From NCBI GenBank assembly GCA_019262145.1, contig CP076745.1, forward strand, positions 307,093 through 371,092: a stretch of 64,000 bases of DNA, in the 5' to 3' direction. This DNA comes from Candidatus Methanogranum gryphiswaldense. Lineage in GTDB: Archaea > Thermoplasmatota > Thermoplasmata > Methanomassiliicoccales > Methanomethylophilaceae. This document shows, piece by piece, positions 27,381 to 31,010 of this stretch. Below the pieces are notes generated by a model. It had not been told where the DNA came from. It saw only the letters and a list, made by a program, of their open reading frames with translations, and made no database searches. Made by a program: the position numbers and the translations under genes. The first letter of the stretch is position 1, and each line of letters begins with the position of its first letter.

Positions 27381-27465
27381 GCCGATGTAGCCAAGCCTGG
27401 TTAAAGGCGATGGACTCAAGATCCATTCTTGCAGGAGTTCGCCGGTTCGAATCCGGCCGTCGGCA
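27381..27465 (+). tRNA. tRNA-Leu (anticodon CAA)
   Basis: A class II cloverleaf folds with acceptor GCCGATG/CGTCGGC, D stem GCC/GGC, anticodon stem ATGGA/TCCAT with loop CTCAAGA, a long variable arm (TCTTGCAGGAG) and T arm GCCGG/CCGGC around TTCGAAT. The anticodon CAA reads UUG. Discriminator A is at 27465. CCA is not encoded, unlike the tRNA-Ala and tRNA-His genes of this window. TTTATTTA near 27345 could be its TATA box. Confidence 0.95.
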
Positions 27466-27807
27466 CTCATATTTCTCTTTAGCAGAGAGAGGGTTGTTTT
27501 GAACTCGAATTATTTTTCTGAACTTTTCTTGAGTATGCGTGGTTTTAAACATCATATTCTTTAAAAATATTGTATTTTAAATTATTATTAATGTAGTATT
27601 AATATATTAAAAAAATTCTCATGTTAACTAGTTCAATTCATAAAATCGATTAACACAATGTGATGTACGATACTTAATAATGAAAACATCGTTAGTACTG
27701 AGTTAATTTTGATTTAATTGTTAATATTACTTATTAAAATAATTAGATATTATAATGATTTTTTAATAACATATCAATTAGATTTTAATAATAAATATCA
27801 CAATCCC
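27466..27807 (+). promoter_or_regulatory. A/T-rich region upstream of the metal transporter operon
   Basis: This 342-base gap is very A/T-rich with several TATA-like runs. The one nearest the gene, AATAATAAATATC at 27787-27799, ends 8 bases before the start codon, so a start from an earlier box is also possible. ACACAATGT at 27653-27661 matches 8 of 9 bases of the half-site flanking the NikR-like gene promoter downstream. I see no gene or RNA in it. Confidence 0.45.
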
Positions 27808-28716
27808 ATGCTGATGAAAACAATATCGATAGTAGCAATAGTGATTGCAATCGTTTTGGTCGCAGGAGCGGCAGCGGTCGTGGTCATGCACAATAATTCG
27901 AATGATGATGATCGTCAGACCATTACTGTAACAATGGCATGGGAAGAAGACATAGTCGAAGAGATCGCAGGTGATGAGTATAACGTAGTGTCTATGATGC
28001 CGTCAAATGTAAGTCCTCATACAACTTATTCACAGCCTAGTACCGTGGCGGAGCTTTATTCTTCTACGGTTTACTTTATGGTGGGATCTGGCATAGAATG
28101 GGAGACTGCGTTCATGGACGATGTCATCTCGCAGATCCCAGATTCAGTGGAGATCGTGAAATTAGCGGATGAGATCGAGTACACTCCCCTATATTCAGTA
28201 GAAACGAGTGAATCTGGTGAGTATGATGTTCATATCTGGACATCTCCTGATAATTTGGCAAAGATGGCAGAGGTCATTATGGATAAGCTCATAGAGCTGA
28301 ATCCAGACAATGCATCTGTCTATGAGGCAAATTATGAAGCATACATGGACAAGGTCGATGCTGTTAACGATAAGATGACAGAACTTGCAGACCTTGTAGG
28401 CGATGAAGAGATCAATATCCTCGTTTGGCATCCCGCCTGGCAATATTTCATCGAGCAGTATGGAGCTGAGATGGGATTGAATGCCAATATGATCGGGGTC
28501 GAGAGCCAAGGCGAAGTGTCGATAGAGGATGCTGTGACCTTGTACAAAGATTATGACGTCATCTATGTGTCCGTAACAGATGAAGGATACGAGTATAGAG
28601 ATGTACTTGAAGAAAATGGGATAAATGTAGAAGTTGTCAATCCGACACCTGATGATATGCTCGAGTCCCTTTCTGATTTCATAGACCTTCTTATGCAGGA
28701 ATATGCTGAGTCGTGA
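27808..28716 (+). CDS. znuA: Metal ABC transporter, TroA/ZnuA-type binding protein
   Basis: A cluster A-1 solute-binding protein that captures a divalent metal outside the membrane. Residues about 3-27 form one hydrophobic segment (TISIVAIVIAIVLVAGAAAV) without a lipobox Cys, so it is probably an uncleaved anchor. Likely metal ligands are His in SNVSPHTTYS and DVHIWTSPDN, a third His in WHPAWQYF and an acidic residue in VTDEGYEY. The usual His-rich loop is missing. ATG at 27808 or 27814 fits the membrane segment best; the open frame further upstream looks non-coding. It heads an operon with ATPase and permease. Confidence 0.88.
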   Translation: MLMKTISIVAIVIAIVLVAGAAAVVVMHNNSNDDDRQTITVTMAWEEDIVEEIAGDEYNVVSMMPSNVSPHTTYSQPSTVAELYSSTVYFMVGSGIEWETAFMDDVISQIPDSVEIVKLADEIEYTPLYSVETSESGEYDVHIWTSPDNLAKMAEVIMDKLIELNPDNASVYEANYEAYMDKVDAVNDKMTELADLVGDEEINILVWHPAWQYFIEQYGAEMGLNANMIGVESQGEVSIEDAVTLYKDYDVIYVSVTDEGYEYRDVLEENGINVEVVNPTPDDMLESLSDFIDLLMQEYAES

Positions 28717-28725
28717 GGTAGAGCA

Positions 28726-29502
28726 ATGACAGGTGAACCCCCCATATCGATCAAGGATCTCTCCGCAGGTTACGGGAACGAATTGATACTCAAAGGGATC
28801 TCTCTCGAACTCAAAGAGAATGATTTCCTTGCGGTCATCGGTCCCAATGGCGGCGGAAAGACGACATTGTTCCGTTCAATATTGGGCTTGCTCCGCCCAA
28901 TGAGCGGCACAGTGGAGGTCTATGGGGAGCCACCTGTTACAGGTGTAAGGCATATCGGTTATGTGCCTCAGCGTGGAGTCTTCGATTCCAACTATCCAAT
29001 ATGCGCTGAAGAAGTCGTGTTGATGGGATTGAGGGTACGTAAAGGTCTTAGGCCGTTCTATTCCAAAGAAGAGAAAGAGATGGCAGAGGTTGCAATGGAA
29101 TATTCAGAAATGTTAGATTTCCGTGATAAGCGCATCAGCGATCTCTCAGGGGGACAGTTGCAGAGGGTCTTTCTAGCAAGGGCCCTCGCACCCAAACCTA
29201 AGATACTTTTATTGGATGAGCCAACATCCAGTCTTGACCCGTCCATGAGGGATTGTACGTACGATGTTCTTAAGAAGGTCAATAAGGACGGTGTGGCGAT
29301 AATGATCATAACACATGATATGACCAGCATATCACATGATGTGAAGAGATTGGCATGTATGAACAGGAGATTGATCTGCAATGATCGTCCGGAGATCACT
29401 GAAGAGATGGTGGAATTGGGATTCCACTGTCCGCCAGAGTTCTTGAGGGTATCAGGTAATGTCAAAGGTAAGTGCTGCTGCCATGAAGGTGATTCTGACT
29501 AA
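28726..29502 (+). CDS. znuC: Metal ABC transporter ATP-binding protein
   Basis: The ATPase of the transporter. The 258-residue chain has Walker A GPNGGGKTT near residue 37, signature LSGGQLQRV near 141, Walker B KILLLDEPTSSLD near 160 and the switch His in ITHDM. Its C-terminus ends in a Cys/His-rich GKCCCHEGD, which could bind metal. It starts 10 bases after znuA and overlaps znuB by one base. Confidence 0.93.
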   Translation: MTGEPPISIKDLSAGYGNELILKGISLELKENDFLAVIGPNGGGKTTLFRSILGLLRPMSGTVEVYGEPPVTGVRHIGYVPQRGVFDSNYPICAEEVVLMGLRVRKGLRPFYSKEEKEMAEVAMEYSEMLDFRDKRISDLSGGQLQRVFLARALAPKPKILLLDEPTSSLDPSMRDCTYDVLKKVNKDGVAIMIITHDMTSISHDVKRLACMNRRLICNDRPEITEEMVELGFHCPPEFLRVSGNVKGKCCCHEGDSD

Positions 29503-30452
29503 TGGATATATGGGATTATCTTTCAATTTCTTTGATACAGAACATGTTCATGGCAACGGTATGTGCCTGTATCTTGTGCGGAGTCATAGGCACATACGTG
29601 GTCGTCAATAGAATGGTAGCTGTGACAGGGGGTATAGCTCATACGACCTTCGGAGGTATAGGTTTTTCATATTATGTGATGTCTGTATTTTTGGTCGGAT
29701 GGTTCACACCAATGCTCGGTGCATTGCTTTTTGGAGTTGTTTCTGCAATAATAATGACATTCTGTAAAAAGATCTCTGATCTTAGGCAGGATACGTTGAT
29801 CGGCGCTCTATGGGCTGTCGGTATGGCCATGGGAGTAATATTCTTGTGTTTCATGGATCGCAGTGTTATAACTCCGTCCTCGTACGAATCCATTCTTTTT
29901 GGTAATGTGCTGTTCGTTAGCAATCTGACACTAATGATAATTGCCGCGGTTACAGTGGTTATATTGACAGCAGTGGCATTGTTGTTCAGGGACCTTCAGA
30001 TCCTGACATTCGACGAGACCCACGCGAAGATATCAGGCATCAATGTGTTTTGGTTGAACATGGTACTCTATGTCATGGTCGCAGTTACTTGTGTGATGGT
30101 AGCCAATGTGGTCGGTATAATAATGATAATCGCTCTTATGACAATACCCGTGGCGATATCTAATTTCTATACTTACAATCTGAAGGGTATGATGATAGTC
30201 GGCACCGTAATTTCCATGGTATTATCAATTCTGGGTCTATTCCTAGCCATTGGTTTTGACTCCCCTCCAGGGGCGACAGTTGTTCTTATCATTGGAATCG
30301 CGCTTATCGTAGCTCTGTGCATCAATTATTTATCGAAAAGAAGTTCCAAAAAGTTGGAAAAGCGTTCAAGATCAGAAATGCCAGTTGTCAAAGAGACAAA
30401 TTCAAATGTTGTCAACGAATCCAATGTGAAATTTTCTTCGAATAAAAAATAA
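29502..30452 (+). CDS. znuB: Metal ABC transporter permease
   Basis: A 316-residue ABC-3 family membrane subunit with about eight or nine helices. GGIAHTTFGGIGFSYY near residue 43 and the later GIIMIIALMTIPVAIS are typical of zinc/manganese permeases. The last 45 residues are a charged, serine- and asparagine-rich tail that should be cytoplasmic. Zinc is the default guess, but manganese, cobalt or nickel are not excluded, and the neighbouring NikR-like regulator raises the nickel option. Confidence 0.9.
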   Translation: MDIWDYLSISLIQNMFMATVCACILCGVIGTYVVVNRMVAVTGGIAHTTFGGIGFSYYVMSVFLVGWFTPMLGALLFGVVSAIIMTFCKKISDLRQDTLIGALWAVGMAMGVIFLCFMDRSVITPSSYESILFGNVLFVSNLTLMIIAAVTVVILTAVALLFRDLQILTFDETHAKISGINVFWLNMVLYVMVAVTCVMVANVVGIIMIIALMTIPVAISNFYTYNLKGMMIVGTVISMVLSILGLFLAIGFDSPPGATVVLIIGIALIVALCINYLSKRSSKKLEKRSRSEMPVVKETNSNVVNESNVKFSSNKK

Positions 30453-30539
30453 ATTTCATCGAATGTAAATACACGAATTTGGGTTTCTCTTTTTAGTTTT
30501 TTAGGTATTTTTTGATGCAGTTTATACTATTTTGCATCT

Positions 30540-30578
30540 ACATTGTGCGTTAAAATAGGGGATCAAAAGGCACAATGT
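30540..30578 (+). promoter_or_regulatory. Inverted repeat flanking the TATA box of the nikR-like gene
   Basis: ACATTGTGC (30540-30548) and GCACAATGT (30570-30578) are perfect complements separated by 21 bases. The spacer holds the TATA-like TTAAAATA (30550-30557), and transcription would begin at about the right-hand half-site. Binding of a ribbon-helix-helix dimer pair here would block TBP, so this looks like an autorepression operator. Confidence 0.6.
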
Positions 30579-30626
30579 TAATAACTTTTCACGGTATACG
30601 GTCGTTTTGTTAATAAGGGCGAGACA

Positions 30627-31010
30627 ATGGGCATTGTAAGCATATCACTCAACGAAAAGAATTTAGAAGCACTCGATGACATCCGTTCAGCATTCGGCCT
30701 CAATGGTAGAAGTGAAGCCATGCGTACTGCGATCAACATTGCAATGAGCGATATACAAGAGATGAAAGATCTGGCTGGGTCTATAGAAGGAGTATTGATC
30801 GTGGTCAGGAGAGATCATGCTGACCCCTGGATGGGATCGATACAGGCGGAATATGAGACCGAGATTAAAACTCAGATGCATTCCCATCTCAAGGACCATA
30901 AATGTCTTGAGGTGATGGTGATATCTGGAAATGCCGAGAATCTCTCATCCATGTTGAAAGAGATATATGCTACGAATAAGGCCGATTATGTGAAATTCAT
31001 AAGAAGTTAA
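30627..31010 (+). CDS. NikR-like metal-responsive regulator
   Basis: A 127-residue repressor with an N-terminal ribbon-helix-helix (VSISLNEKNLEALDDIRSAF, then RSEAMRTAINIA) and a C-terminal ACT-like domain. H85, H87 and C93 in MHSHLKDHKCLEV line up with three of the four nickel ligands of E. coli NikR (H87, H89, C95). The fourth, H76, corresponds to A74 here, so the metal site differs. It lies 174 bases after the metal transporter operon, with its own operator-like promoter, and probably controls that transporter. Confidence 0.85.
   Translation: MGIVSISLNEKNLEALDDIRSAFGLNGRSEAMRTAINIAMSDIQEMKDLAGSIEGVLIVVRRDHADPWMGSIQAEYETEIKTQMHSHLKDHKCLEVMVISGNAENLSSMLKEIYATNKADYVKFIRS

Follow-up and report, generated by a model that had tools for sequence, protein, structure and literature searches.

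The locus analysed here raises the question of which metal is sensed by a NikR-like protein whose gene stands beside an ABC importer of the zinc/manganese class. The window, i.e., the whole stretch of 64,000 nucleotides, belongs to Candidatus Methanogranum gryphiswaldense, whose genome is a single contig (1.52 Mb, 99.9% complete) and whose relatives in the family include Methanoplasma and Methanomethylophilus. The regulator gene lies 3' of the ZnuA-ZnuC-ZnuB importer operon (window 27808-30452), and the positions of all features are collected in the table below. We propose that the protein is probably a zinc-responsive regulator of zinc uptake, most likely a repressor. Upstream of this set, a tRNA-Leu gene (anticodon CAA) is located at 27381-27466, between a MarC-family gene and znuA.

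Table. Features of the regulator-importer locus (positions in the window; fractions give matches to GTTAWTAAC).
Feature	Position	Strand	Remark
Third half-site of the initial annotation, ACACAATGT	27653..27661	+	1 of 19 near-matches in the window
Putative operator element CTTATTAAA (7/9), before znuA	27730..27738		pattern match
Putative operator element TTTAATAAC (8/9), 32 bp after CTTATTAAA	27762..27770		pattern match
Putative operator element TTTAATAAT (7/9), 22 bp after TTTAATAAC, ends 16 bp before znuA start	27784..27792		pattern match
znuA, cluster A-I metal-binding protein	27808..28716	+	zinc-type third ligand His (VWHPAW)
znuC, ABC ATPase	28726..29502	+	domain match
znuB, ABC-3 permease	29502..30452	+	domain match
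Inverted repeat of the initial annotation, ACATTGTGC-N21-GCACAATGT	30540..30578		exact, unconserved, probably incidental
Putative operator element GTTAATAAC (9/9), regulator promoter, at -50	30577..30585		same distance in orthologues
Putative operator element GTTAATAAG (8/9), 32 bp after GTTAATAAC, at -18	30609..30617		pattern match
NikR-like metalloregulator (RHH + NikR_C), 127 aa	30627..31010	+	A74 at H76 place, H64-x-D66, H85-S-H87, C93

The initial annotation had described the regulator as a NikR-like protein that keeps H85, H87 and C93 and has Ala in place of the fourth nickel ligand, and it was right on both points. The protein scores 47.5 bits with the Pfam model NikR_C (PF08753), whose cut-off is 22, its solved relatives are solely the NikR proteins of P. 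horikoshii, H. pylori and E. coli, and in the alignment with solved NikRs Ala74 falls on H76 of the E. coli protein and its P. horikoshii equivalent. The best 50 PDB fold matches of the AlphaFold model (pLDDT 93) were all NikR or its C-terminal domain, with TM values of at most 0.80. All NCBIfam NikR cut-offs were missed, the best score being 68.2 bits vs 111. Three NikR_C proteins are encoded in the genome. Besides the window protein, these are a canonical NikR near 1131762, in which the ligand set is complete, and, at 1251553, a paralogue that is 63% identical to the window regulator and divergent from a ZIP zinc-transporter gene. In the tree it is the paralogue (L035:7551-8811) that clusters with the copy from the other member of the genus. 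The window copy clusters with those of other genera and may therefore have been acquired or stem from an old duplication.

NikR-like matches were present in 138 of the 147 genomes of the order, a count that takes in canonical NikR. Among the matches listed in the phylum search, a score gap separated the subfamily of the window regulator (at least 110 bits) from the rest (at most 86 bits). The tree split the 56 subfamily rows from the NikR rows with a support of 100/100; it includes only 8 NikR rows, and its inner branching order is unsure because of the small number of columns and two long branches. Sequence comparison gives good support to a distinct subfamily in archaea that stands apart from the true NikR encoded by the same genome. 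NikR-family paralogue is a better name for the regulator than NikR, given that the defining ligand tested is absent and the protein is positioned outside the NikR clade.

The character of the importer was the next point bearing on the metal. The binding protein had been assigned to the zinc/manganese class and not to the nickel type, and the domain content agrees with this, the cluster A-I importer being complete with ZnuA, an ABC ATPase and an ABC-3 permease. The ZnuA ligand motifs SPH, VHIW and VWHP provide His/His/His as in zinc binders, with the third His corresponding to a Glu in the aligned Mn binder, and the alignment places the protein nearest to the zinc ZnuA of Synechocystis. The zinc specificity of ZnuA stays predicted, because the protein scores below the NCBIfam equivalog cut-offs. 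The sensing of manganese or another divalent metal by the regulator, with the transporters acting as Mn or broad-range importers, would agree with the Mn proteins found among the NCBIfam matches of ZnuA and with the composition of the ZnuA and ZIP families, which include Mn, Fe and broad-range transporters. It would also agree with a gene for a TerC-family membrane protein, a family tied to manganese, that is divergent from one His74-type homologue with neither importer nearby (L060:7446-8414). However, a site of one invariant cysteine and two histidines suits Zn(II) over Mn(II) on general chemical grounds, and ZnuA carries the third His of zinc binders, which makes manganese an unlikely effector.

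Gene neighbours were tallied by hand for 56 non-redundant loci from a 112-locus listing in which many genomes appear twice (L035, the paralogue, was scored as ZIP). ZnuABC was found within 5 kb of the regulator homologue in 18 of these loci, and another 18 carried a divergent ZIP gene beside the homologue, usually about 90-130 bp away; the ZIP neighbour matched the Pfam ZIP model with 98 bits. Neither transporter was nearby in 20/56 loci, and in some of these, e.g., G047 (L128) and G072 (L126), the operator described below stands before a distant znuA or ZIP gene. Far homologues in Methanomethylicota and Nezhaarchaeota (L207-L209) also adjoin ZnuABC. A 216-aa membrane protein without a Pfam family, a candidate metal permease, is encoded divergently from the regulator gene in a different family of the phylum (L141:5464-6114, L144:1762-2412).

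A nickel sensor whose nickel response extends to a ZnuABC-type importer, or whose importer itself carries nickel, would be compatible with the NikR_C domain, with the retention of H85, H87 and C93 in every subfamily row and with H74 in basal members. We consider this very unlikely, since ZnuABC of the zinc type and ZIP stand beside the gene, no nickel importer was found among the examined operator targets and neighbour loci, the NCBIfam NikR cut-offs are missed, and a canonical four-ligand NikR is present in the same genome and in five further genomes checked. The separate NikR also makes the suggested link to the nickel demand of F430 synthesis unlikely. The initial annotation had further suggested that the set may handle a metal other than expected, or nickel by an unusual route; the first half of this is supported, as the metal is probably not nickel and zinc is the best candidate, although the loss of the fourth ligand does not explain the change by itself.

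The ligand changes can be followed through the subfamily. Residues S5, S7, R28, R33, T82, H85, H87 and C93 are invariant in all 56 rows, and Ile or Val occupies the place of R3 in E. coli NikR. His stands at position 74 in 30 subfamily rows and all 8 NikR rows, whereas the other 26/56 have Ala, Gly, Ser, Val or Glu. The latter 26 rows form a single clade (support 99/94), throughout which position 61 is Arg or Lys (His in 27 of the 30 other rows) and H64-x-D66 is present; since all these changes belong to one lineage, the row counts are not independent tests. In the nearest outgroup rows (L060-L064) H64-x-D is already there together with both other histidines, and for this reason the sequences look as though H64-x-D was gained first and H61 and H74 were lost later. 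His74 is retained in basal subfamily members, and as these also adjoin ZnuABC, loss of the H76-type ligand was rejected as the sole cause of the metal change. The change of targets preceded the ligand loss, because the basal His74 members have the same targets. In E. coli NikR Zn(II) is bound in tetrahedral and Ni(II) in planar geometry (PMC7055735), and the absence of the fourth planar ligand is consistent with a site that is no longer maintained for nickel. We give about even chances to the more detailed proposal of a phylum-wide archaeal zinc sensor on a NikR scaffold, with its own operator, one clade of which gave up the nickel-defining ligand together with another histidine and now uses H64 or D66 to complete the site.

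The regulation of the locus was initially read from a perfect 9-bp inverted repeat upstream of the regulator gene, taken as good evidence for autorepression. The repeat is there, with ACATTGTGC at 30540-30548 and GCACAATGT at 30570-30578, both exact and 21 bases apart, but its occurrence is near chance: the probability of a perfect 9-bp inverted repeat (spacer 10-30) in this intergenic stretch is 0.016, and 13 such repeats were counted in the window vs 1-11 in shuffles. The third half-site, reported about 150 bases before the transporter operon, was located some 155 bp upstream of the start of znuA; half-sites with at most one mismatch number 19 in the 64 kb. A genome search for the pair, proposed earlier as a check, returned one occurrence in the own genome and 0/102 in the family genomes with a pattern of 7-bp cores and a spacer of 20-22, from which the window's own core spacer of 23 falls outside. 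The pair was also absent from the aligned orthologue promoters, and the weight against it rests on these promoters, the 102-genome pattern being a narrow test. The repeat was therefore rejected as an operator, being unconserved in the orthologue promoters, and is probably incidental. Autoregulation is likely, and the regulator and the transporter likely form a single regulated unit; however, the predicted operator is GTTAWTAAC, one copy of which, that at 30577, is overlapped at its start by the right arm GCACAATGT.

This 9-bp palindrome, derived from 51 elements, recurs upstream of the orthologues, with spacings of 21-22 and 32-33 bp between copies, and the fullest arrays contain four copies at 22-32-22 (G033, G034, G038). 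In a strict test, which counted exact-core pairs spaced by 21-23 or 31-33 bp within 180 bp upstream, pairs were found for 25 of the 41 order homologues (16/41 order loci had no upstream pair) and for 14 of the 15 phylum homologues. This amounts to 39/56 homologues, compared with 9 of 18387 (0.05%) AT-matched stretches of the order loci. In the 102 family genomes the 22-bp pair pattern gave 134 matches vs 26 for the reversed control, and the 32-bp pattern 107 vs 36. The operator is old, being kept in phylum homologues that share no more than about 32-45% identity with the window protein. When 20 sites were inspected, 13 lay directly upstream of znuA (6-42 bp, in other genomes) and 2 before ZIP, although, with multiple elements having partly guided the choice of sites, 15/20 should not be taken as an unbiased frequency.

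The znuA promoter and the regulator promoter hold the two best 32-22 matches anywhere in the 64 kb of the window. A Markov control of the intergenic stretch before znuA gave P = 0.003 for the trio there (27730, 27762, 27784), whose elements match at only 7-8 of 9 positions within a stretch of 79% AT. At the regulator promoter the 32-bp pair stands alone, the first element of the usual trio being missing. Sites in the own genome, where the regulon was searched by pattern only, include the promoters of znuA, the regulator and the paralogue/ZIP pair. It is improbable that the NikR-like protein is an activator, or that GTTAWTAAC is bound by another protein, e.g., one of the DtxR family, with the NikR-like gene as a mere target: the palindrome tracks this gene through the phylum (in 14/15 loci), and 22 bp is a spacing that agrees with a NikR tetramer. 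Nevertheless, the own genome does encode one DtxR-family protein, which could be the zinc sensor, and DtxR-like regulators have been predicted for znuABC in Methanosarcina (PMC2770081). No Fur/Zur-family (PF01475) match was obtained in the own genome; a control search matched the Fur model in some archaea.

For the NikR-like protein, the sequence analysis itself yielded the predicted fold, the subfamily, the linkage to transporter genes and the conservation and placing of the operator. Beyond these results, we infer that zinc is its effector, that it binds the operator, that it represses and does not activate, and that the lost ligand has a replacement. Under sufficient zinc the regulator tetramer would take up Zn(II) at the H85/H87/C93 site, which in the non-His74 clade is probably completed by H64 or D66, the H76-type ligand having been lost. 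The two ribbon-helix-helix dimers of the tetramer would then occupy palindromes 22 bp, or two helical turns, apart, and the 32-bp step could seat a second tetramer three turns on. Transcription from the occupied promoters, those of znuABC, ZIP and the regulator itself, would be blocked. When zinc is scarce, the regulator would release the DNA and zinc import would rise.

The regulator resembles E. coli NikR in its fold (RHH + NikR_C), in three ligands (H87/H89/C95 there, H85/H87/C93 here) and in elements 22 bp apart before znuA and many orthologues; the E. coli half-sites GTATGA-N16-TCATAC are likewise 22 bp apart from centre to centre (PMC7055735). In contrast to NikR, it is associated with GTTAWTAAC, lacks the Arg at the R3 place, is linked to znuABC and ZIP, and in the window's clade has lost H76, a ligand that in NikR comes from the neighbouring subunit. 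The likely role, repressing znuABC and other zinc importers, would be that of Zur, whereas Zur has the Fur-family fold, to which the NikR fold is unrelated. The ZntR of Methanosarcina is also a predicted archaeal regulator of znuABC, but it is DtxR/MntR-like and belongs to another archaeal lineage (PMC2770081). A literature search that covered subscription journals thinly found no paper joining NikR and archaeal zinc uptake, and an earlier description is possible. If our reading is true, the regulator is an archaeal stand-in for bacterial Zur built on a nickel-sensor frame, which would explain zinc control in these methanogens and add a second metal specificity to the ribbon-helix-helix class. 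The subfamily would also offer a natural series of proteins for testing how one fold encodes metal choice, and the label "nickel-responsive regulator" is probably wrong for the whole of it.

Similar elements were also seen at other places. In the own genome, a GTTAWTAAC pair at about 714 kb (L082:4947-6097) is flanked by two small Cys-rich proteins of 68 and 98 aa with repeated CxCxxC motifs, metallothionein-like and without a Pfam match, whose genes are possible further targets of the regulator. At about 1089 kb (L083:6441-6501), a trio with 22 and 32 bp spacing in AT-rich sequence lies at the start of a 204-219-aa open reading frame on the minus strand. In a Methanoplasma MAG, an operator-like pair occurs 22 bp before the gene for a 706-aa fused NifH/nitrogenase-component-like protein (L119:2815-5019). 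At L121:4530-4949, operator-like elements have a ChlI-like AAA gene on one side and the gene for a corrinoid-binding protein on the other.
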